A stretch of DNA of 33,572 bases from Chryseobacterium gleum (GTDB taxonomy: Bacteria; Bacteroidota; Bacteroidia; Flavobacteriales_D; UBA2798). The stretch spans positions 1 through 33,572 of the forward strand of contig CAMBFX010000013.1 of assembly GCA_945865695.1 (NCBI GenBank), in the 5' to 3' direction. Below the pieces are notes generated by a model that saw nothing but the letters and a program-made list of their open reading frames with translations, did no database searches and was not told the origin of the DNA. The stretch's first letter is position 1. Each line of letters starts with the position of its first letter. Made by a program: the position numbers and the translations under genes. Below, piece by piece: positions 14,905 to 28,368 of this stretch.

Positions 14905-15693
14905 TTAATCCAAATACTTTTTTATCTCCGGCAAAAACGCTTTGATATCTGCAATTCTAGTTTCGTCACTGGGGTGAGTGCTCAAAATTTCTGGAACCCC
15001 TGCTCCACCGTTAGCCGACATTTTCTCCCAAAATAAAACCGCTTTCTCGGGATTGTATCCAGCCATGTACATAAAAATCAATCCTAATTTATCAGCTTCG
15101 GTTTCATGTTGACGAGAATATTTTAAGCTTCCCAATGCAGATGCAATTCCATAAGCTTGTAAGAAAATCTGACTTCCCTTGGATGCCTCATCACCCATCA
15201 TCACCGAAAGTGTTTGCCCAAGGCCATAAAATGCCATTTGCTGGCTCATTCTTTCATTTCCATGCCTAGCTAAAGCATGAGAAATTTCGTGTCCCATAAC
15301 CACAGCTAATAAAGTATCATCAGAGCAAAGAGGTAAGATTCCTGTATAAACAACCACTTTTCCTCCTGGCATACACCAGGCATTGATTAATTTATCTTGA
15401 ACCACATTAAATTGCCAATCAAATCCAATCAACCTACTTTGTAAACCATGATCATTAAAATATTTTTCTACCTTCTCTTTGATTTTATTTCCCACTCTTC
15501 GCACTTGAATAACTCTTGGGTCGTTATCATTTAATACAATATTGGTATCTAAAAATAAATCATAAGCAGTATCACTCATAGTGATTAATTGCTCTTCTGG
15601 TAAAAGATTTAATTGCTTGCGATTGGTTACAGGAACTCGAGTGCAAGAATAAGTCAAACACGAAAGAAGGAGAATAGTAAATAAAAATTTCAT
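14905..15693 (-). CDS. M48-family zinc metalloprotease lipoprotein
   Basis: Lipoprotein signal LTYSCTRVP; zinc motif VVMGHEISHALARHG; ETEADKLG. Confidence 0.94.
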   Translation of the reverse strand: MKFLFTILLLSCLTYSCTRVPVTNRKQLNLLPEEQLITMSDTAYDLFLDTNIVLNDNDPRVIQVRRVGNKIKEKVEKYFNDHGLQSRLIGFDWQFNVVQDKLINAWCMPGGKVVVYTGILPLCSDDTLLAVVMGHEISHALARHGNERMSQQMAFYGLGQTLSVMMGDEASKGSQIFLQAYGIASALGSLKYSRQHETEADKLGLIFMYMAGYNPEKAVLFWEKMSANGGAGVPEILSTHPSDETRIADIKAFLPEIKKYLD

Positions 15694-15740: not shown

Positions 15741-16031
15741 CTAATGAATTTCTGCCGATAATCCTGATTCTAATAATGCTGTACAAATAGGCTCTAATTC
15801 TTCAAAGGTACCATTCTTAATTTCGCATTTGCCGCTGTAATGTACTATATAAGCACACTGCTCGGCTTGCATAGTTTCATGTTTACAATACTTCACTAAC
15901 ATATTAATTACATGATCAAAAGAATTTACATCATCATTAAATAATACTAAATGTCTTGAATCAACATTTTCTTCAAGAGTAAGAACTTCCTCTTCTTCCT
16001 GCCATAATGGTTTTGTTGAATAATTACTCAT
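15741..16031 (-). CDS. clpS: ATP-dependent Clp protease adaptor ClpS
   Basis: HLVLFNDDVNSFDHVINMLVKYCKHETMQAEQCAYIVHYSGKCEIKNG. Confidence 0.93.
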   Translation of the reverse strand: MSNYSTKPLWQEEEEVLTLEENVDSRHLVLFNDDVNSFDHVINMLVKYCKHETMQAEQCAYIVHYSGKCEIKNGTFEELEPICTALLESGLSAEIH

Positions 16032-19000
16032 ACATTAATTTTATTGCTTCTTCTTCACTTATTTCTTTTGATTGATAATAACCCACTATTTTTACGGTTG
16101 TAATTCCTTCTTCATTAAAAAACGATTTATCCTGTGTTGCTTTTTCATAGGATTTATGATCACCGGTATAGTAGATAGTGCTGTTTGTTGGAGAATCTTT
16201 TCGTTTGATTCCTTTACTCATATTATTAAGAATAATTAAAGTAACTTTTTCTGGCAATTCATTTACATACTCACCAATGTAAACTTGAAAAACTAATCCT
16301 TCCACATCCTTTATTTTTTTATCAGATAATTCAGTTGTGTTGGTTGTGTTAGTTGTGTTAGTTGGATTAGTTGTGTTAGTTGAAGTGGTAGAGCCATCAT
16401 CAATTTTTACACCTTTTAAACCTTTTTCTTTATACTTACTAATCAACTGATCTGTTTTTTCTTTCCCTTCAATATCCTCAATATAGAAAATAGTTTTACC
16501 ATTATCGTCTTTGTTTCTTTTTATTGCATCCTCAGAACTTGTCATATAAACTTGAGCATCATTTGCTGGCACATCATTGGCATATTCACCTAAAATAATT
16601 TTATATTTCTTAGTGTCAACCGTTGGTGTAATTTGATTCCCGCCATTATTGGTAACTGTATTTTCTAAGGTTGAATTCACTGCTGTATTTACATTTCCAG
16701 TAGTATTTGTATTTGTTCCTTTCAAAGGATTTCCATTCGCATCTAGTTTTACTAGAATGGAATCACCATACTGTTTTAATAATTCTAACCCCTTTTCAGG
16801 AGTAATTTTATTTCCATTGATGTACGCAACAACGAACGCATCTTTCACTCCGATGTTACGAATTTCACCTTTGCGTAAATCCGCCTTATCAAATGCTTTA
16901 TAAATTCCAGTGGTATAACGAATCCAATTATTTCTGGTAATTAATTCACTATTCAGTGGAGAAAGATTGAATATTTTATCTGGTGTAACTGGCTTAGAAT
17001 AAACTCCCACTTGCACCGTGAAAAACAATCCTTGAATCACTTCAATCTGATTTGCTTTTGCTGCATTAGGAGTTCCGGCATAATAATCATCTTTTTTCTC
17101 ATCAATCAAATTCGTTTTCACTAATTCATCATTGGATGGGTTGGTGGTATTGGTCGCTACTGAAGTGTTAGTTAAATTAGTTATGTTAGTTGGGTTAGTT
17201 GGGTTTGTTAAGTTAGTTGAGTTGGTTATGTTAGTTGGATTAGTTGGGTTAGAATTATTTCCATTATCAATTTTAGCTAACACATCAGCTACGTTTGTTT
17301 TTTTTCCATCATCAAATCCAACCACAAAAGCATCTTTATAACCCATTGCACGAATTTCATCACGAGCTTTAATTGCTGATTCTAAATTCGTGAAATAACC
17401 AACGGTATAACGAGTTAAACCGTCACCTCTCGCCTCTCCAGTTACTGGGGCAAACTGGCTATATAAACTTTGTTTAATTGGATTACGGAAAGCTCCAACT
17501 TGTACTTTTAAATAAGCCCCATTTGGTGTTTTTGGATTTATTGGAATTGGATTAGCATCCGAATAAATAGGCGTTTCCACTCTCGTAAATACATCAGAAT
17601 TTACAATAGTTGGAATTACAAATTCTTTATTCGTTGGATCTGTAGTTTTAACAACAGAACGGTCTGGATCAGGTAATTTTCCATCAGAAGTAGCTAAACG
17701 AATATCTTCTGCTTTTTTAGAATCGATTTTCTTTAAATAATTTTCTACATCCCAATTAAAACCACTTGATTCTACATACATTTTCTCTGCCACTCTAGTT
17801 AATGAATCTGCAGAACGTTCAGCTTTATTTGCTTTCTTATCCAAATCATTTGCGGTTTTCTCTAATTGTGTTTTACGATCAGCATCCAATTCATTAGCCA
17901 CTAAATCTCTGGTATCTTGAGCTTCTTTTCGTGTATTATCCGCAATAATTTGTTGCTGTTCTGATTCTAATTTCGCTTTATCTCCTGCTGCTTTTTTATC
18001 GTCAGCTCGCTTTTTCATTTCGTAATATTCCACATACTCCGGTAAAGTTTTAACCGTTTCTTTTTTCTCTAAACGAATCGTTTCAATTTCTTTTCTCTTG
18101 TTTTGTTCTACTACTAAAATTTCTTCTTTTTGTTGATCTTCATTTGCTTTTTTATTCAAACTATTAGCAATATCTTGATGAACATTAGCATCATTTCTGG
18201 CTTGTTCGGCCGCTTTTTTATTTTCTTCTTTTGATTTTTTATTTCCTTTTTCAGCTTTTTTATCAAATTCTGCGGCAACATTATTTAAAGAATCAGCTAT
18301 TCTTCTTTCTTGAGTAGCCAATTTTCTTGCTTGAGATGAATTTCTTTCTTCAACATCCTCTGGAACAACCATATTTCCGTATTGATCTTTTGTTTCAGTC
18401 GAAACTTTAGCAGTCATACTATCTGCAATGTATCTGTTCATCAAATCACTTGCTACACGTATTTTTTCGATAGCAGAAGTTTCTAAATTATGAGCATCAC
18501 GCAATAAATCTGCTTTTTTTAATGGATCTTTTTCTTTGGTCGCATCCATTCTTTTTTGAGTAGCGTCATATTTATTTCGTTGCGCTTCTTGTTCCAAATT
18601 TTCTGCGGCTATTTTGCTTTCCTCATTAGAAGAACTAAAATTTGCAGAATTATTTTTTCTATTGGTATAATCTTGATTCGCCTTTTCCCACTCTTTATCA
18701 TTAGCAGCTTTCAAATCATCATTCACACTTAATTCCTTTTTAGCAATCGCCTGATCTTTTCTATCTAGATCACCTTTCGCCAACTTTTTCAATTTTTCAT
18801 CTTCAATTGTCAAATAATTCATTCTTGCTTCATCAGCTTCTTTTTTCATTTTAGCTAAATCAGTCAAATCTTTTTTAACGTCTTCCACTTCCTTATTGGC
18901 TTCGGTAGAATTATAACTTACCGACTCATATTTCACATCAGAATTTCTAGAATCCGGAATTCCAGCTTCCTTTAATTCTTCGTTCGTTTTTTCCATTTCA

Positions 19001-22000
19001 CGAATAGTTTCATTCTTAATCGTATTCAATTGATCTAATTTTTCCTTTTTTTCTTCAGGTGTTTTATTAAAATCTGTTTTAACTTTTAATTCTTCCTTTT
19101 CGATATTTTTTAAGAGATCTTCATTTAATTCATTCTTTCGAATATTTTTTTCTTCTTTAGAATCGGTAGAATTCTCAATTTTCGCTACTTCCTTTAAATA
19201 TTCTGGATCTACATTATTTAATGTTTCCTTTTTCTCTTCTGATATATTTTGGGTTGAATTTACAGTAGCAACTGGCATCTCATTTTTATACTCTGCAAAT
19301 AATTTTTCAGCTTCTTTTAATGATTCAATGGCTTCTTTTTCTTTGGCAGAAGCTTGTGAATTCAAATCAGCCTTTTTCATTGCATCGGATTCTTTTTTGG
19401 CATCGGCTCGTAATTGTTCAGCCTCCTTTTTAGTCCTTTCTGAATTTTGCTCTGCTATAACCGCATTTTTGTATTTTGGATTGTTTTCATCTGGATTTCC
19501 ATTTCTAAAAATATTCTTCTTTGTTTTTTCAACGTTTTGATCGGTAGAAACATATTCTGTATTATTTACTTTTTCAATTGCTGGAGCTACTTTATTAATT
19601 TCAGAATAATAGCTTTTCTCTTCGGTCACCATTTTCTTATCTAATTCCTTTTTCTTATTAGGATCTGTAGTTTCAGCCAATTCAACATACAACTTCTCTA
19701 ATGAATTTTCTTTGGATTCAATCACATCCATTTTCTTTTCAATTGCAACGGCATCTTTTTGTGCATTAGGATCAGAATACTCAGCAGATTTAAGTTCCGT
19801 TGTTTCTATTGAAATTGTTTTTACCCCTTTTTCATTAAGCTCATCTTCGCTTTTCTTGATTTCAACTTCTGTCTTTTCCTTTAAAACTTTTAATTCGGAT
19901 AGTTGTTTTTCTTTTTCTGATTCGGTTAAAATTAGGTCTGTTACTATTTTATTTTCCTTCTTTTCAATTTCTGTCAATAAATTCTCATTTGTCTTTTTTA
20001 TTTCCACTTCCTTTTTTAATTCTGAATAAGTAGAATTCTTAATCTCATTTAACTTCGCATCATAAGTCGAATCAACTTCCTTAATTTTTTCTTTATTATC
20101 GACCGTAAAATCATTGGTAGAAACTGATGTTGTATTTTCTTCCATTTCAATTCTAGCGATTTCTGATTCATGAATATTGTTTTCATTTTCTACTTTATCC
20201 TTCAACTGAATCAACTCTTCTCTTTCCTTTTGCGATTTTAGTTTTTCATCACCCGTTAGCTTATTCAATTCTTTGTCTATTTGAACAATTCTAACATCTG
20301 CATTTTTAATCAACCGATCATTCAAGTCCACTTTATCCGACAATTTATCTTTTTGAGAATCCGAAGAGGAATTAATTTTATTCATCTCTTGGTCATATCC
20401 TGGTAGCTTTTCATTTGATAGTTCTGTTTTTCTAACCTCAGTAAGAACCACCTTTTCGCTATTTGCAACCGTGTTTTCATTAAGTTTAGCTAAATCTTTT
20501 TCAATTTCAGAATTTTCATTCGTTCTTTCTACTTTAATCTTATTTACTTCCTCTATCTGTTTTGTAATTTCATTCTTCTTCTCTGTATCGGTTTCCGAAT
20601 TCAATTTCTGGGTTAAATCATTTTCAATTTTACCCAATTCATTAATGATTTCTTCATTGATTTTCTTCTCTTCAGTTAATCCCATTTTTTTATCGGGATT
20701 ATTCTCTGCATCATTCTTCTTTTTATTTAACTCTTTATAATTGTTATTTTTAGCTAAAAAATCTTGATTATTTTCTCTATCCGTTCGGTTTTGATCTTGC
20801 TGAGCGTTGATTTCACTTTTATTTTTTTCAATAGCGGATGCAACAGAATTTTCCGTCATATCCTTGGCCAGCTTATCTTTTTCAACTTGTGTTAATGAAG
20901 AACCCACATCACTAATTCCAGAAATTACTGACAATTGTTGATCTAATTCTTTCTGCTCTCCAATTAGCTGTTTGTATTTTTTATCATTGGCCGCAATCTG
21001 TGTTTGAGTATCTGATAATTCAGATTTTTTACCTTGCAATTCCGTTTCTATTGCTTTTTTTCTATCCTTTTTTGTGTTCGAATCTTTTAATTCTTTTTCT
21101 AATGAGGCGATGTCGTTCAATAAAGCATTTTCCGATTCACGATAATCGTCTAAGCGTATTTTCAATTTTTCTACTTCATTTCGTTTTTCAGAAGAGGCTG
21201 TTCTTAATTGGTCTTCATTATTTTTGTTTTCAGAATTAGCACCCATTACTGTTTTCACAAATTCTTGTTGCTTTTTCAATTCAGCAATTACTTCATTGTG
21301 GTTCTTCGCATTCACTGCCTTTTCAATTCCCTTTTCAAATTCACGAGCGATATTCGCATCCTTTTTCTTTTGTTCTACATCTGATTCTATTCCTTTTCCC
21401 AAATTAAAACCAGATACAGCCATCGCATTATCTTTAGCCGCATCTTCATTTAATTCAGCAGCTGCTTTAATCAATTGCTCTTTCTCGTCTTCATTAGATG
21501 TTTGGCTTGCTTCCTTGATCAAGTCGTTTGCTTTATCCGACTTCTCTTTTGCTTCTTGTTGCTTTTTGGCAGCAAATGCATATGCTCCATCCATTTTTAG
21601 CTTGGCTTCTTCATAATCTGTCTGTAATAAATCAGCATCCTTTTTTGCAACAGCCAAAACATCTTCATCTGCTTTAATATCTAATGAATCCGTTTTATCA
21701 ACCTTTGCATTTAAAGTAGTATCATTGATATCTGCATTAGGATCTAATTTGGCTTGTCCAAGAAAAACTTCTGCCAAAATCTCATCTACATTTTCGAATT
21801 GCTCATCAAAGAGATTTCTAATTTTTAAAATTTCTTTATTCTCTTCTTTAGTTAAAACTAATTCTTGTTTGAGCGGTCGCAATTCTTTTGAGGGAGGTAC
21901 TTCTACAATACCGGTATGTACCACTTGTGATTCGGCTACCACAGAAAATTTATACTTTCCTCCTTTGGGAAGAGTAATTAAATAAGATCCATTATTTCTA

Positions 22001-23160
22001 TTGGTATTAAAAATTCCAATTACTTCATTAGTTGCTACATCTTCAATGGTGATGGTTGCAGCTAAATACGTTTCATTAATTTCATTTATAAAATTTCCTT
22101 TAAGAATCGCAATATTGATCGGAAGTCGATCTACAAAAACATTATAAACATTTATTTTTCCAGAAGGGCTTTCTCTTGTAGAAGCGAAATAAGCCATTTT
22201 CTCGGACGAGTCAGTAACATATAAATAATCATCTCCCGGCGTATTAATGGCAAAGTCTACATTTTCAGGCGCTGAAAATTGATTGGTTTCACTATCATAA
22301 TAGCAACGAAAAATATCATATCCACCCATGCTATTATGACCTGTAGAAGCAAAATAAAAAGTTCTTCCATCTGGATGCATATAGGGAAAATCTTCATCTA
22401 GAGAAGTGTTGATGGGTCCATTTACTATTTGCGGAGTTCCAAAAGATCCATCTGGTAGTCGATTTACTTTGTAAATATCTTTTCCGGTTTTGCCGTCTTT
22501 ACCATAACTTGAATAAAAAATAGTTGAATTACTCGATTTAGCATTAGGGAAATAAACAATCACATTATGTTTTTTCTTTTTATCTAAGTCGGATTGTAAG
22601 GCAGAAATTAAAGCCATTTGACCGCCAATTCCTTGTAATTTATAATTATAAAAGAAATTAGATTCATTGAATTCGTTACGCGAAACAACTTGAACTTCGG
22701 TGATACGTTTCAATAAAGATTTTCCAAAATTACAAGCGTCAATTTCTTTTTGAACTTGATACTTCTCTTTTTCTTTCGGATTTAATGTAATGAACTTAGT
22801 ATAGGATTTCATTGCATCTGCAAACATATAATTCAAATGAAAGGCTTTTCCTAAGTGAAACCAAACACGAGAATCAGTCCCTTCTATTTGTGATGCGAAT
22901 TTTAAATAACGTAGACCTTGCCTTTTGTCGCCATCGGTATAAAGAATACAAGTTCCATATTTGAAATTATATTCACCACTTTTTTGATCTACACTTAGCT
23001 TTTTCAAAAAAAGTGGACCTGCCTCTCTAAAATTTCCTTCTTCAAAAAGTTTATTTGCTTCCTTGAGTTCTTCCGCAGGTGATTTTTGCGAAAAAGCAGC
23101 ATGCGAATTGATTCCCTGAAGAAGAGTAATTAAAAAGGTATATAGAAAAATTTGTTTCAA
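16024..23160 (-). CDS. Giant exported envelope protein: TPR + PD40 propeller + regulatory-like beta domain + about 1400-aa repetitive coiled coil + four C-terminal SPOR-like domains
   Basis: 2378-aa ORF with signal peptide; TPR-like N-terminus; STIFYSSYGKDGKTGKDIYKV and HPDGRTFYFASTGHNSMGGYDIFRC; K/E/N/A-rich coiled coil; C-terminal LKVQVGAFRNP, FTVQVGVYSKP, YKIILGEYAND, FQVYIGEYVNE. Start codon is TTG. Confidence 0.85.
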   Translation of the reverse strand: MKQIFLYTFLITLLQGINSHAAFSQKSPAEELKEANKLFEEGNFREAGPLFLKKLSVDQKSGEYNFKYGTCILYTDGDKRQGLRYLKFASQIEGTDSRVWFHLGKAFHLNYMFADAMKSYTKFITLNPKEKEKYQVQKEIDACNFGKSLLKRITEVQVVSRNEFNESNFFYNYKLQGIGGQMALISALQSDLDKKKKHNVIVYFPNAKSSNSTIFYSSYGKDGKTGKDIYKVNRLPDGSFGTPQIVNGPINTSLDEDFPYMHPDGRTFYFASTGHNSMGGYDIFRCYYDSETNQFSAPENVDFAINTPGDDYLYVTDSSEKMAYFASTRESPSGKINVYNVFVDRLPINIAILKGNFINEINETYLAATITIEDVATNEVIGIFNTNRNNGSYLITLPKGGKYKFSVVAESQVVHTGIVEVPPSKELRPLKQELVLTKEENKEILKIRNLFDEQFENVDEILAEVFLGQAKLDPNADINDTTLNAKVDKTDSLDIKADEDVLAVAKKDADLLQTDYEEAKLKMDGAYAFAAKKQQEAKEKSDKANDLIKEASQTSNEDEKEQLIKAAAELNEDAAKDNAMAVSGFNLGKGIESDVEQKKKDANIAREFEKGIEKAVNAKNHNEVIAELKKQQEFVKTVMGANSENKNNEDQLRTASSEKRNEVEKLKIRLDDYRESENALLNDIASLEKELKDSNTKKDRKKAIETELQGKKSELSDTQTQIAANDKKYKQLIGEQKELDQQLSVISGISDVGSSLTQVEKDKLAKDMTENSVASAIEKNKSEINAQQDQNRTDRENNQDFLAKNNNYKELNKKKNDAENNPDKKMGLTEEKKINEEIINELGKIENDLTQKLNSETDTEKKNEITKQIEEVNKIKVERTNENSEIEKDLAKLNENTVANSEKVVLTEVRKTELSNEKLPGYDQEMNKINSSSDSQKDKLSDKVDLNDRLIKNADVRIVQIDKELNKLTGDEKLKSQKEREELIQLKDKVENENNIHESEIARIEMEENTTSVSTNDFTVDNKEKIKEVDSTYDAKLNEIKNSTYSELKKEVEIKKTNENLLTEIEKKENKIVTDLILTESEKEKQLSELKVLKEKTEVEIKKSEDELNEKGVKTISIETTELKSAEYSDPNAQKDAVAIEKKMDVIESKENSLEKLYVELAETTDPNKKKELDKKMVTEEKSYYSEINKVAPAIEKVNNTEYVSTDQNVEKTKKNIFRNGNPDENNPKYKNAVIAEQNSERTKKEAEQLRADAKKESDAMKKADLNSQASAKEKEAIESLKEAEKLFAEYKNEMPVATVNSTQNISEEKKETLNNVDPEYLKEVAKIENSTDSKEEKNIRKNELNEDLLKNIEKEELKVKTDFNKTPEEKKEKLDQLNTIKNETIREMEKTNEELKEAGIPDSRNSDVKYESVSYNSTEANKEVEDVKKDLTDLAKMKKEADEARMNYLTIEDEKLKKLAKGDLDRKDQAIAKKELSVNDDLKAANDKEWEKANQDYTNRKNNSANFSSSNEESKIAAENLEQEAQRNKYDATQKRMDATKEKDPLKKADLLRDAHNLETSAIEKIRVASDLMNRYIADSMTAKVSTETKDQYGNMVVPEDVEERNSSQARKLATQERRIADSLNNVAAEFDKKAEKGNKKSKEENKKAAEQARNDANVHQDIANSLNKKANEDQQKEEILVVEQNKRKEIETIRLEKKETVKTLPEYVEYYEMKKRADDKKAAGDKAKLESEQQQIIADNTRKEAQDTRDLVANELDADRKTQLEKTANDLDKKANKAERSADSLTRVAEKMYVESSGFNWDVENYLKKIDSKKAEDIRLATSDGKLPDPDRSVVKTTDPTNKEFVIPTIVNSDVFTRVETPIYSDANPIPINPKTPNGAYLKVQVGAFRNPIKQSLYSQFAPVTGEARGDGLTRYTVGYFTNLESAIKARDEIRAMGYKDAFVVGFDDGKKTNVADVLAKIDNGNNSNPTNPTNITNSTNLTNPTNPTNITNLTNTSVATNTTNPSNDELVKTNLIDEKKDDYYAGTPNAAKANQIEVIQGLFFTVQVGVYSKPVTPDKIFNLSPLNSELITRNNWIRYTTGIYKAFDKADLRKGEIRNIGVKDAFVVAYINGNKITPEKGLELLKQYGDSILVKLDANGNPLKGTNTNTTGNVNTAVNSTLENTVTNNGGNQITPTVDTKKYKIILGEYANDVPANDAQVYMTSSEDAIKRNKDDNGKTIFYIEDIEGKEKTDQLISKYKEKGLKGVKIDDGSTTSTNTTNPTNTTNTTNTTELSDKKIKDVEGLVFQVYIGEYVNELPEKVTLIILNNMSKGIKRKDSPTNSTIYYTGDHKSYEKATQDKSFFNEEGITTVKIVGYYQSKEISEEEAIKLMYE
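16333..16384 (-). repeat. In-frame 9-nt tandem repeats encoding Thr/Asn linker
   Basis: Minus strand TCAACTAACACAACTAATCCAACTAACACAACTAACACAACCAACACAACT encodes STNTTNPTNTTNTTNTT. Confidence 0.85.
17166..17252 (-). repeat. In-frame tandem repeats encoding NPTN linker
   Basis: Encodes NPTNPTNITNSTNLTNPTNPTNITNLTN; plus-strand units of the GTTAGTTGG type. Confidence 0.85.
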
Positions 23161-23213: not shown

Positions 23214-23864
23214 TTATTTATTTTTTCGTCTTACAGGAAGCCGATTCTCTTCCTTTCTGAGAAGTCGTTCAATATTTTTCTGATGAGTAAAGAGCACAAC
23301 AATGGCAATTATCATCGAAAAATGAATAAGTGGAAGTGGTTCTGGACGGAAAAAAATAAATAAGTGAAAGGGGAAAGATATTCCTGCTATCATAGAGCCT
23401 AGGGATACATAGCCCGTCAAAAGAAACACAATTAAAAATATAGCTATACTCAAAAGCGCTGCTTGCCAATGCAATGCGATAATTACACCCATTAGAGTAG
23501 CCACTCCCTTGCCGCCTTTAAAATTTGCAAAAACAGGAAAAATATGACCAATGGTTACCGCAACAGCTAATGCTAATTGGAACATAGTGAAAATATCATC
23601 TTTGTGATTAAGTGGAGTCATATCCGAAAAAATCCAAACGGCAAAAAAACCTTTTAAAGCGTCAAGAATTAAAACGGTAACACCAGGTTTTCTACCTAAA
23701 ACACGAAAAGTATTAGTAGCTCCTGCGTTTCCACTTCCGTATTGACGAACATCCGTTTTATAAAAAGACTTTCCAATCCAAACGGCAGATGGGATAGAAC
23801 CCATTAAATAGGCCGCAAAAATTGCTAATAGATGAAACGAGGTGTAAACTTCTTCCATTTCCAT
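23214..23864 (-). CDS. plsY: Glycerol-3-phosphate acyltransferase PlsY
   Basis: YLMGSIPSAVWIGK, VRQYGSGNAGATNTFRVLGRKPG, HIFPVFANFKGGKGVAT. Confidence 0.95.
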   Translation of the reverse strand: MEMEEVYTSFHLLAIFAAYLMGSIPSAVWIGKSFYKTDVRQYGSGNAGATNTFRVLGRKPGVTVLILDALKGFFAVWIFSDMTPLNHKDDIFTMFQLALAVAVTIGHIFPVFANFKGGKGVATLMGVIIALHWQAALLSIAIFLIVFLLTGYVSLGSMIAGISFPFHLFIFFRPEPLPLIHFSMIIAIVVLFTHQKNIERLLRKEENRLPVRRKNK

Positions 23865-23925: not shown

Positions 23926-26900
23926 TTACTCCACCATAAAACCAATTGCTGGTCCTCCGCTTGAAAGTGTTGTAATGGTTAAATCTTTAACTCCCTTCTC
24001 TCCCTTAAACTTCTTTTTGTCGTCTTTTGTTTCGGTGATTATATTATTAAATTGAGAATCTGAGGAATATGTGCTCAATAATCCATTAATGTATTTGAAA
24101 TAATAGTAAGCACTTTCTGGAGCAGTGCCATCTAACCAAATAGCCAATTGAATTTGATCACCTGTTTTACGTTTTAAAATACGTATTTTAACATTTACGA
24201 TTTTTAAGACTTGTTCATCATAAATATTACAAATTCCAGCTTTTCCATTGGCTTCCCATCCTTGCTCTTCCCCTTTTTCGGTAATGAAAGTACCCCATTT
24301 AAAATTCACGTCAGTTAATACCATTGAATTTTTTATTTTAACAGGAAAGTCTTTAATTTTTCCTTTATAAAGTAATTCTTCCATCATTTTATTCGTTTCG
24401 TCAAGAGAGGTCATTTCTCTTAAACCTTGAACCATATCTGAACCAGAAGTTTCTAACGGCATTAAGTCTGGAAATTTATTTATTTTCTCCACCATTTTTT
24501 TCATTGCGCCTTCAATGAATGGCAATTCAATTTGAACAGCGGCTTTAAATTGAGTGGAATTTTTAGCTAAATCAGTTGTAATATTTCCAACAGAAGTTAC
24601 TTTCACTAGGTCAAGATTCATTCCTAAATTCATTTTTCCATTTCCACTCAATTCACATTTGTCTTTGCTTAATGTGAGCATATTTCCAGGAAGAGAATTT
24701 TCTGAGAATTTTTCTTTCGTACCAATTTTATATTGTTTGCTGGTTTTGTCATACATCAAAATTCCAGAAGCTTTGATAACCTCGGTATGTTCTTTATTAA
24801 TTTTCTCTGAGAAGAAAGTGGGATAAAGTGAAACAGAATCTGTGTTTACAATCAAACCTGCCGTTAAAATTTTCTTCTCGCTACCTGAAATCTCAAGATC
24901 AACAGGAATTTCAATATTAAGTGGGTCTACAACACCTTTAAAGTTGAACCAATCAGTTACGAAACCATTACAATTAGAAACAATTTTAGTTGAACCATCA
25001 AAATTTAAACCTACATCAATCGCTTTTAGTGCAATTTTTCCTTTGTAATAAAAATTTGAACTAAGCATAAAATTCATCTCTTCTTTCACTTCTCCTATGG
25101 CATAAGTTTGAAAAGCGGTATCAACGGTGATATTTGCAAAATGAAAACTTGATTCTTTTTTGTCTTCATCAAGATAAAGATAATCACCAGAGGCAGTATA
25201 TTTTTTACGTGTATTAACTATAACATTTGCATTAAAAATTCGATGGTATTTAGTTACAGAGTTGGCTATTATTTGTGAATTTTTAAATTCATCCATTTTT
25301 GCATTTTTTCGAATTATTACTTTCTGGCTATCTGGTAAAATTCTAGCATCTGCAACATCTAAATAAGTTACTTTATCGGCATAAATTACTACCTTTTTCA
25401 TATCATATCTTGCTTTTGGAGCCATAAAATTCAAAGAATCTTGATCAGGATGGATAGAGAAAAAATTAGATCCAGCCAAATCCAAATCAGTGTCGATGTT
25501 TAAGCTTTTTCGATCAGATTCGAACGTTAAATCTTCGCGATCCATCCACCATTTGAATCTATCCATAAAACACACATACTTTATTTCCTCAAAAATCAAA
25601 GGCTCTGCTTTTCCATTGGAAGCAAATTCACCATATCGCTTATCGAAATCCACATGAGCTTTTACGTTTTCTGTTTTCAAAGCTATAGACGATTCATCAA
25701 AATTTTTGAGTCTAAAACTAGCCGTATCCGAATCAATTGCTCGTGCAGTTAAAATAAATTTTTTCGCTCCTAATTCAGCCGCATTAAAATAAATTCTGCC
25801 GCGAGCAGTCATACCGGATTCGCGCAATGTAACTGTTCCTTTCATTTTCACTTTTTCGATACTGTCATAAAGCATCAATGGTTTTTCGAGCGATTTGGCA
25901 GTAAACAATTTTTCTTTTGGAGCATATTTTACAAAACAATTTTCGCCATTCACAATTGGCACATTCATTCCTTGTGTGGTATGTGTATTGATATATTTCT
26001 TAGCCACTCCATTGGTTGAATCAGGAAAGAACGTAAAAGCATCAGACTCTGCTGAAGAAGTTAAAAAGGAAATTTTACCATCTCCCTGCAATCCCTTGCC
26101 CGATAATCGAATTTCGTTTTTAAAAACACCTTTATCCGCATAAATTTTTGCACCTGCATCGCCGGCTTTTCTGGTAAATCCAAGTGAATAATCTGGCATC
26201 ACTTTCAGTGATTCCTTCATCATAGGAAAAATTCCAGCAGAATGAAACTCACCATTAAATCGAAGTGATTTATTTTTAAAATTATCCAAACTATCTAAAG
26301 TAAATTTCTCATTTTTAAAATAGAATTTGGTACTGTCATAAACCCCACGATAGATTTTATTAAAAAACACATAACTTTCTTTATTGCATTCAAATATTGG
26401 ATACTTTGCAAATCCTCTTTTACTTCCTGCTTTATTATCTTTACCATCAATAGTAATGGTTCCTTTAACTCCAACTATTACTGAACTAAGTCTAATTTGA
26501 TTTCCTCTTCCTGTTAATGGCCAAACTCGAATTCTCATTGAGTCACAATCCACCACATTCAATTTAAATTCAGCATAATCAAACGAGAAATTCTTTCCAA
26601 AATATTCTGTAGCTCCCGCATTAATAATTCCGTCAAAAACAAAACTTCTATTTTTCTTTACCACAATTTTTTCTTCTCGTGGATAAACTTTTACAAATTG
26701 GGTATCACTTAAAGTCACTTTTTTTACTCCATCAATAGTTAAGTCATAACTTAACAAATTAATACTTGCATTTATTCCTGATTTCTTAGAATCGAAAATG
26801 ATAACATCAAAGTCATTATTTCGTCCAGCAGCTTTTATATAATCAAACATCTTTTTCTTTAAAAACACTTTTTCTTGGTCTGTATCACAGTCAAGCAATC

Positions 26901-28368
26901 CAAATTCAGCCAATTTAAATATGGTAGGAAGCACCATATCTTTTGTTCCACCTAATGCACTACAAACATCATATAGATTTAAAACCATGGTATCCTTTTT
27001 CAAGTACAATTGTTCAATCGCTAAAGCGGGATGATAAGAATCCATTCCCATCATTTGTTGGTACCTCACAATAGAAAAGTAATTTGCTGATTCGAAATAA
27101 GCTTCTGACGCTTGACCTTTATCTATGGTTGGACCCATATTTAAATCTTGAGTTCCCATTTTCCAACTCATGGTTTCGAACTTCATATCCAATTGATGAT
27201 AGGAATCATAATAGGGCGCCTGAGCGGTTCCTTGGCCCACTCTATTCAATGATACACCCCGAGTAATATTATCATATTTAAAATCTAAACCAGGATGTGA
27301 AATGGAATCTTTATCCATAAAAATGACTATTCTAGTTTTTTCCGAGGTAATTTTATCTGGTTTAATAATGAAATTAGTAGAGAAACCTTTCATCAATTTT
27401 TTACCATCCTTATAAAAAATTAAACTAGCTGGAAACTCAGGTGAACCTGTTCCAAATAAACTTGCGCCATCTAATGCAAATCCACCTTCGTAATCAATTT
27501 CCGGAAATACCTCTTTAATAAATAATCGTTTACTATAGGATTGAAATTTAGGATAGGTATGTCCGATAGTTTTACTTACGTTAACCAATTTATCACTAAC
27601 ACGCCCTTCTAAGGGTTTTTCAAAAAATTCAGTATACATAAAGCTTGAGTCGGCATCAAATCCTGCTGTTTTTAAATTGAGTCGATACTTTTTTAATTCT
27701 GCATAAGTTGTGGTTTTATCTAATCCTGTTCTTTCCCAAGTAACTGTTCCTTTATTACCTTGCCAAGTATCGAGTAAGGGTTTCAAAACTCCCGAAGTTT
27801 TAGCTATTAAAGAGCTATCGTTTTTTATAGAAACTACGCATAAGTCAGCTAGGGCAAAAGTAATAACAGGTGTTTTTTCATAAGAAAATTTGTAATCACG
27901 AGAGGTAATTCTCCATTTGATATTTACATTTTCAAAAACTACACCAGTATTAAATAATCCATCGGTAACTTTTAAAAATTCATCATATTTCTTTTTGTCG
28001 ACGCCTCCAAAAATTTTATCTATCACCTCATGGTATTGCGCAAATGCGGCTTGAGGATGTTTGTTTTTGAAAAAACCATGTATACCATGAATATAATTAT
28101 AATATTCCGGAAAAGCCTTAGCTCCTTTTGTTACTAATGAATTCGAGTAAGTATAAATGGTTTGTTTATCTGAATCTGGAATAGAATTCCAAACAGGTGT
28201 AAAATCTTTGATAAAATCTTTTGCTAATTTACGATCACCACCTTTTGTTAAAAATGACTCTACATCTTCTAGAAATTTTATTGGATCTGATTTAAACTCT
28301 TGTGCATTTAAACTTTTACCCAACAAAAATATTGCGGCAACAATTATTGCCTTAATTCCATTTTTCAT
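23926..28368 (-). CDS. 1480-aa exported protein of unknown function, predicted beta-rich
   Basis: Signal peptide MKNGIKAIIVAAIFLLGKSLNAQ; one uninterrupted ORF with alternating beta-type pattern and no TM segments. Confidence 0.85.
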   Translation of the reverse strand: MKNGIKAIIVAAIFLLGKSLNAQEFKSDPIKFLEDVESFLTKGGDRKLAKDFIKDFTPVWNSIPDSDKQTIYTYSNSLVTKGAKAFPEYYNYIHGIHGFFKNKHPQAAFAQYHEVIDKIFGGVDKKKYDEFLKVTDGLFNTGVVFENVNIKWRITSRDYKFSYEKTPVITFALADLCVVSIKNDSSLIAKTSGVLKPLLDTWQGNKGTVTWERTGLDKTTTYAELKKYRLNLKTAGFDADSSFMYTEFFEKPLEGRVSDKLVNVSKTIGHTYPKFQSYSKRLFIKEVFPEIDYEGGFALDGASLFGTGSPEFPASLIFYKDGKKLMKGFSTNFIIKPDKITSEKTRIVIFMDKDSISHPGLDFKYDNITRGVSLNRVGQGTAQAPYYDSYHQLDMKFETMSWKMGTQDLNMGPTIDKGQASEAYFESANYFSIVRYQQMMGMDSYHPALAIEQLYLKKDTMVLNLYDVCSALGGTKDMVLPTIFKLAEFGLLDCDTDQEKVFLKKKMFDYIKAAGRNNDFDVIIFDSKKSGINASINLLSYDLTIDGVKKVTLSDTQFVKVYPREEKIVVKKNRSFVFDGIINAGATEYFGKNFSFDYAEFKLNVVDCDSMRIRVWPLTGRGNQIRLSSVIVGVKGTITIDGKDNKAGSKRGFAKYPIFECNKESYVFFNKIYRGVYDSTKFYFKNEKFTLDSLDNFKNKSLRFNGEFHSAGIFPMMKESLKVMPDYSLGFTRKAGDAGAKIYADKGVFKNEIRLSGKGLQGDGKISFLTSSAESDAFTFFPDSTNGVAKKYINTHTTQGMNVPIVNGENCFVKYAPKEKLFTAKSLEKPLMLYDSIEKVKMKGTVTLRESGMTARGRIYFNAAELGAKKFILTARAIDSDTASFRLKNFDESSIALKTENVKAHVDFDKRYGEFASNGKAEPLIFEEIKYVCFMDRFKWWMDREDLTFESDRKSLNIDTDLDLAGSNFFSIHPDQDSLNFMAPKARYDMKKVVIYADKVTYLDVADARILPDSQKVIIRKNAKMDEFKNSQIIANSVTKYHRIFNANVIVNTRKKYTASGDYLYLDEDKKESSFHFANITVDTAFQTYAIGEVKEEMNFMLSSNFYYKGKIALKAIDVGLNFDGSTKIVSNCNGFVTDWFNFKGVVDPLNIEIPVDLEISGSEKKILTAGLIVNTDSVSLYPTFFSEKINKEHTEVIKASGILMYDKTSKQYKIGTKEKFSENSLPGNMLTLSKDKCELSGNGKMNLGMNLDLVKVTSVGNITTDLAKNSTQFKAAVQIELPFIEGAMKKMVEKINKFPDLMPLETSGSDMVQGLREMTSLDETNKMMEELLYKGKIKDFPVKIKNSMVLTDVNFKWGTFITEKGEEQGWEANGKAGICNIYDEQVLKIVNVKIRILKRKTGDQIQLAIWLDGTAPESAYYYFKYINGLLSTYSSDSQFNNIITETKDDKKKFKGEKGVKDLTITTLSSGGPAIGFMVE

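Follow-up and report, generated by a model that had tools for sequence, protein, structure and literature searches.

The 33,572-nucleotide stretch of DNA analysed here (the window) carries a gene for a 2378-residue protein, hereafter the giant, in which a head homologous to that of PorE is joined to tandem SPOR domains by a helical spacer of about 1,400 residues. The giant is conserved across many Bacteroidia and is not a one-off. On balance, we favour the view that it is a PorE/CHU_0125-type periplasmic linker, anchored by its SPOR domains, which would couple the outer membrane to the amidase-processed, most likely septal, cell wall.

Domain organisation of the giant

The open reading frame (16024-23160, minus strand) is single and intact, with a TTG start and zero internal stops, in agreement with the preliminary description of a 2378-aa envelope protein. 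The domain order announced there (signal peptide, TPR, PD40, beta domain, helix, SPOR) was confirmed by Pfam scans of the separate segments, PDB matches and AF2 models, the beta domain being CRD/Ig-like, the helix a spacer of ~1,400 aa and the SPOR-like repeats four in number. When the whole protein was scanned against Pfam, PD40 (E=7.6e-5) and SPOR (4.1e-4) were both over their cut-offs, TPR was weak and OmpA gave no match at E<=1. The N-terminal features are as follows.

23086..23160, minus strand: signal peptide (residues 1-25), Sec type, no lipobox cysteine (from the sequence)
22708..23079, minus strand: TPR domain (residues 28-151; Pfam, PDB sequence matches, AF2)
22126..22689, minus strand: PD40 / partial beta-propeller region (residues 158-345; PD40 E=2.8e-9, PorE model)
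21811..22113, minus strand: CRD / CnaB-like beta-sandwich (residues 350-450; weak CarboxypepD_reg, CnaB2 structure match, AF2 strands)

The lipobox is absent from the window protein, and 36 of 37 orthologues have no lipobox-like match; the sole such match, FGAC in locus L075, is located in the TPR region.

The TPR-like repeats, PD40 propeller motifs and regulatory-like beta domain proposed earlier for the head all hold. First, the TPR segment scanned alone matched TPR_2 with E=2.8e-4, below the Pfam cut-off of that family, its best PDB sequence matches were designed TPR proteins, and AF2 placed seven helices over residues 28-151. Second, the PD40 segment scanned alone gave two PD40 stretches (Pfam, E=2.8e-9). 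Third, the CRD-like segment matched CarboxypepD_reg at a sub-threshold 0.026 in Pfam, and its model nonetheless matches a CnaB2 structure. Residues 1-760 were modelled by AF2 with a mean pLDDT of 80 and a pTM of 0.49, at moderate confidence in the propeller portion, and this model gave TPR and CnaB2 as structure matches. The only curated-family match of the giant was the NCBIfam model T9SS_PorE (NF052230; E=3e-23, residues 205-451), which it matched with 82 bits where the cut-off is 600. According to the profiles, the AF2 model and the PDB matches, the giant thus has a TPR-propeller-CRD head of the PorE type.

The SPOR end

The four SPOR-like repeats of the preliminary description resolved, by profile matches, into two canonical and two divergent ones.

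17266..17523, minus strand: SPOR1 (residues 1880-1965), canonical, with Q1887, A1890, F1891 and R1917 (Pfam, CwlC 1x60, AF2)
17167..17252, minus strand: N/T/P-rich repetitive linker after SPOR1 (tandem repeats finder, low AF2 pLDDT)
16756..17028, minus strand: SPOR2 (residues 2045-2135), canonical by family profile (profiles, AF2)
16396..16611, minus strand: SPOR-like repeat 3 (residues 2184-2255), divergent, without the Gln (third-SPOR profile, 1.1e-10)
16030..16296, minus strand: SPOR-like repeat 4 (residues 2289-2377), divergent, without the Gln (third-SPOR profile, 8.3e-18)

Scanned alone, SPOR1 passed Pfam SPOR (PF05036) with 28.8 bits over a cut-off of 21 (E=1.5e-6); the window's own SPOR2 and repeats 3 and 4 had no Pfam match as isolated segments and were recognised by family profiles. 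The SPOR1 and SPOR2 profiles (A4, 32 sequences; A5, 33 sequences) matched each other at 1.8e-37, and the best PDB match of both was the SPOR of CwlC (1x60; E=0.0014 and E=0.0029, respectively). Repeats 3 and 4 matched each other at 4e-10, the best match of repeat 4 being the third SPOR of class-level relatives.

The Gln of the VQVG motif is invariant in both alignments, and the Arg of TRY is kept in at least 90% of the SPOR1 and in most SPOR2 sequences. Matched by motif, without superposition, these residues correspond to Q270 and R309 of RlpA, whose SPOR uses Q270 and a patch of arginines, R309 among them, to bind denuded glycan, excludes stem peptides, and also binds anhydroMurNAc ends, more weakly (PMC6895207). 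SPOR1 and SPOR2 therefore keep the predicted glycan-contact Gln and Arg known from RlpA and, by analogy with other bacteria, the SPOR ligands of the giant would be the same. AF2 modelled residues 1260-2378 with a mean pLDDT of 62; the values were about 85-95 for SPOR2, 72-89 for SPOR1, 41-76 for repeat 4 and below 45 for repeat 3, while the linkers that flank the SPOR domains were poorly modelled and disordered-looking. In both SPOR1 and SPOR2, the strands and helices follow one another, as read from DSSP without superposition, in an order that fits beta-alpha-beta-beta-alpha-beta. SPOR was not reported in a PDB fold search with the whole C-terminal model, in which helices dominated the matches.

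The helical spacer and its repeats

17551..21810, minus strand: helical spacer (residues 451-1870), length-variable among orthologues (AF2, periodicity, orthologue comparison)
20161..20415, minus strand: spacer repeat copy (residues 916-1000; repeat HMM E=3.6e-13)
19840..20082, minus strand: spacer repeat copy (residues 1027-1107; repeat HMM E=9.6e-9)
18976..19218, minus strand: spacer repeat copy (residues 1315-1395; repeat HMM E=2.3e-13, AF2)

This region had been described as an enormous coiled coil with almost no hydrophobic core. It is indeed helical where AF2 modelled it (up to residue 760 and from residue 1260), with low confidence over much of its length, but part of it is an array of ~101-aa repeats, and the statement on the core was wrong: ILVMF residues make up 14-25%, and in the window spacer hydrophobic residues recur with a helical period of 3.50 residues (z=6.2). 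Among 12 proteins, the strongest peak lay at 3.4-3.75 in 10 (weakly in L083, z=2.2) and near 2.7 in L073 and L079.

Self-BLAST of the entire spacer returned no matches; a windowed self-comparison yielded 13 HSPs in the window spacer, offset by about 290, against none in heptad-block shuffles, and no internal repeats in several orthologues. The autocorrelation peak lay at 101 for both L033 and L032 and at 96 for L041, and a repeat HMM grown from L033 detected 179 domains (E<1e-3), spread over 36 proteins, and zero in heptad-block-shuffled spacers. There are three clear copies in the window, which span just part of its spacer, and up to 15 in relatives, some copies being 95% identical, with a median spacing of 101 aa (among spacings between 80 and 120). 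Spacers with more copies are longer (slope 66 aa, r=0.85 over 37 proteins, uncorrected for relatedness). Most class-level relatives are without any copy by this HMM, and the repeat is established for the window's order only. AF2 models the copy at residues 1315-1395 as a short helix plus a helical hairpin (pLDDT about 73-89), and a single unit compared alone with the PDB gave weak matches, chiefly to designed helical proteins. No curated domain or solved structure was found for it in this analysis. The spacer thus brings to light a helical repeat, apparently undescribed, whose arrays grow and shrink quickly.

Conservation and distribution

A taxonomic search for full-length homologues found relatives widely in the class Bacteroidia. 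The head matched at E<=1e-42 in 134 of the 296 class genomes sampled, most of the matches lying in frames above 1,500 aa (the relatives of the giant mostly span 1,500-2,600 aa); some of the 134 frames are shorter or cut by a contig end, and a few of the genomes add a two-headed paralogue. At the order level, all 60 genomes have some head match, many of them to paralogues, and orthologue-grade matches are common, in frames of up to 2,960 aa. In the phylum sample (297 genomes), just two had head matches, the genome of the window and another from the same order.

Two SPOR motifs were recognised by pattern in 36 of the 37 orthologues of the window's order with complete frames above 1,600 aa; in L064, an ambiguous base breaks the frame and the SPOR part sits in the next one. 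Twenty class-level loci, chosen non-randomly to include short and odd forms, were searched with head and SPOR profiles, and 15 of them had one to three SPOR matches: two or three in 12 (L095, L101-L111) and one in 3 (L092, L093, L098). The SPOR profiles had no match in the other five. Among these, L099 and L100 run off their contigs, so that the absence of SPOR is uninformative; L094 is a complete 1,579-aa frame; and L096 (7818-10769) and L097 are 984-aa frames of a different paralogue, in which two TPR-PD40-CRD heads are fused.

The literature yielded no characterised full-length homologue, which is weak evidence, as subscription papers and preprints lay outside the search; nor was any paper found on PD40 plus a SPOR domain in Bacteroidetes, or on a SPOR domain and Flavobacterium.

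Gene neighbourhood and related proteins

23926..28368, minus strand: 1480-aa ORF that starts like a signal peptide and has no known domain; a conserved neighbour
23214..23864, minus strand: PlsY glycerol-3-phosphate acyltransferase, conserved upstream neighbour (recurs across loci)
15741..16031, minus strand: ClpS-like protein of 96 aa, a conserved neighbour on the downstream side, whose start overlaps the end of the giant
14905..15693, minus strand: M48 peptidase, lipoprotein-like, frequent downstream neighbour

The gene order TIM-PrmA-(1480-1540 aa)-PlsY-giant-ClpS-M48 occurs, whole or partial, in most loci of the order and several of the class, the 96-aa protein being presumably ClpS from the appearance of its sequence; the giant gene is thus widely conserved and uncharacterised, in a stable neighbourhood. 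Relatives of the 1480-aa ORF were found in 240 of the 296 class genomes sampled, and this neighbour, being more widespread than the giant, is not tied to it. The ORF matched nothing in Pfam or the PDB, and its reading as LptA/OstA-like, supported by neither, was dropped. No PorP-like gene was recognised near the giant, in the window or in the loci of relatives, and no T9SS genes in its conserved neighbourhood.

The head of the giant is also homologous to that of a PorE/CHU_0125-like paralogue in its own genome. This genome encodes a 908-aa TPR-PD40-CRD-OmpA paralogue; a 728-aa TPR-PD40-CRD-SPOR paralogue (L112:3078-5264), directly 3' of an OstA/LptA-like gene; an amidase-like protein with its own SPOR (the amidase recognised by eye); and a segment of a PorG-like outer-membrane barrel, after which come SPOR domains (L115:1-1887, G000:C189), in a frame open at the contig start. 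Two further proteins combine HU-CCDC81 domains with a C-terminal SPOR (L113:636-1910 and L114:5050-6210), and a 1,150-aa protein that differs in its N-terminal part has one SPOR closely resembling SPOR1 (L116, G069:C24:28304-28567).

Proposed role and alternatives

From these data, we infer the docking, localisation and function of the giant as follows. The TPR-PD40-CRD head would dock on the inner face of the outer membrane, directly or via a barrel partner; as the giant has neither a lipobox nor a PorP-like neighbour, this attachment would need another partner. The length-variable spacer, with its ~101-aa repeat arrays in the window's order, may give the protein slack and let it reach along the envelope, and its SPOR domains, in tandem, would bind peptidoglycan strands from which amidases have removed the stem peptides. 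Because OmpA_C grips stem peptides and SPOR stem-less glycan, an exchange of the former for the latter would shift the anchor from the whole sacculus to the amidase-processed wall, most likely the division septum, where it would couple the outer membrane to the septal wall.

The idea, put forward at the outset, that SPOR replaces the OmpA anchor fits the PorE-type head, the lack of an OmpA match and the C-terminal SPOR domains with conserved glycan-contact residues. It is further supported by the occurrence in the same genome of OmpA and SPOR versions of the head and of the SPOR PorG-like barrel. This barrel, the amidase-like protein with its SPOR, and the conservation of the giant through the class, with SPOR matches in 15 of the 20 class-level loci, speak for the proposed linker as a whole. 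Against it count the lack of a lipobox and of a recognised PorP-like neighbour, the low AF2 confidence over much of the spacer and over repeat 3, the deletion of CHU_0125, a TPR-PD40-OmpA_C protein that maintains outer-membrane integrity, which causes no division defect (PMC5891637), and the complete relative L094, which has no SPOR match. More tentatively, the giant might be a Bacteroidia-specific outer-membrane-to-septum coupler that acts where Tol-Pal does in Proteobacteria, with a reach tuned in evolution by the gain and loss of ~101-aa repeats. If true, it would be a candidate for how many Bacteroidia draw in the outer membrane with the dividing wall, and a swap of anchor, from a reader of stem peptides to a reader of stem-less glycan, would have redirected an old envelope linker.

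Alternatively, the giant could be a general, Pal- or CHU_0125-like tether for outer-membrane integrity, acting cell-wide with its SPOR domains on scattered denuded or anhydro-ended glycan and with no special septal role. The head type is common to CHU_0125-type integrity proteins (PMC5891637) and the paralogues of the giant, and the weaker binding of anhydroMurNAc ends by the RlpA SPOR (PMC6895207) would suit this role. We nevertheless regard it as rather unlikely, since SPOR specificity for stem-less glycan would concentrate the giant at amidase sites and the 908-aa OmpA-type protein of the same genome could serve general tethering.

The T9SS_PorE match and the GldJ-type match in the window's genome could point to a T9SS or gliding component or accessory, PorE-like, for example one that anchors a PorP-like barrel and surface cargo to the wall. 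This is improbable given the low T9SS_PorE score, the neighbourhood without recognised T9SS genes, and the distribution. Taking GldJ-family matches at E<=1e-40 as a proxy for T9SS/gliding, 261 of the 296 class genomes have one, and in at least 127 sampled genomes a GldJ match occurs without a giant at the thresholds applied. Family f63, whose ten genomes are presumably Flavobacteriaceae judging from their GldJ scores, which are the highest, has neither a head match at threshold nor a SPOR in a long frame. A core role was rejected on this distribution, the giant not being present wherever the system, by the GldJ proxy, is.

The length and helical periodicity of the spacer would also suit a structural filament, in which spacers self-associate into a SPOR-anchored envelope fibre parallel to the wall, and multi-rail filaments with GldJ as a component have been described beneath the outer membrane of gliding Flavobacterium johnsoniae (PMC9870892). 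Such a filament is quite improbable, as there is no evidence of self-assembly and the presumed family of F. johnsoniae is without the giant here. Finally, a periplasm-spanning strut or ruler setting the intermembrane distance, as suggested by the great length of a helical spacer that links a head of outer-membrane type to a wall anchor, is very improbable, because this spacer is too long (about 213 nm as one straight helix, by our calculation for 1,420 residues at 0.15 nm, in a periplasm a few tens of nm wide) and too variable (about 1,000-2,240 aa among the relatives in the order, tracking repeat gain and loss) for a fixed length, and the linkers flanking the SPOR domains look disordered in AF2.

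Comparison with known systems

The reading that we favour, a SPOR-anchored periplasmic linker, places the giant beside PorE (PG1058 of Porphyromonas gingivalis, type IX secretion), which has a TPR, a PD40 beta-propeller and a CRD in the same order. Both are periplasmic and end in a domain of the peptidoglycan-binding type, the binding being predicted for the giant. PorE, a lipoprotein of ~78 kDa, has OmpA_C at its end, whereas the giant has no lipoprotein signal, a ~1,400-aa spacer and SPOR domains in place of OmpA_C, and scores far below the 600 bits of the PorE family. PorE binds the outer-membrane barrel PorP and is a proposed bridge from PorP to peptidoglycan (PMC9143113; PMC5053529); its OmpA_C grips the stem peptide via DAP, and its homologues in F. 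johnsoniae are also without a lipobox (PMC7192894).

The CHU_0125 family (NF053607, Cytophaga hutchinsonii) resembles the giant in its TPR-PD40 head and C-terminal wall anchor, and CHU_0125 differs from it in its size (656 aa) and its OmpA_C; NF053607 does not match the giant at E<=0.1 and matches only its shorter paralogues. The 728-aa paralogue has the same head and the same class of anchor as the giant, but lacks the long spacer and has a single SPOR, which did not reach the Pfam cut-off when the whole protein was scanned. In FtsN, DamX, RlpA and CwlC, usually a single SPOR is attached to an enzyme or to an inner-membrane protein. The giant resembles them in its SPOR profile and in the glycan-site Gln, Ala, Phe and Arg kept in SPOR1, and differs from them in combining two canonical and up to two more tandem SPOR domains with an outer-membrane-type head.
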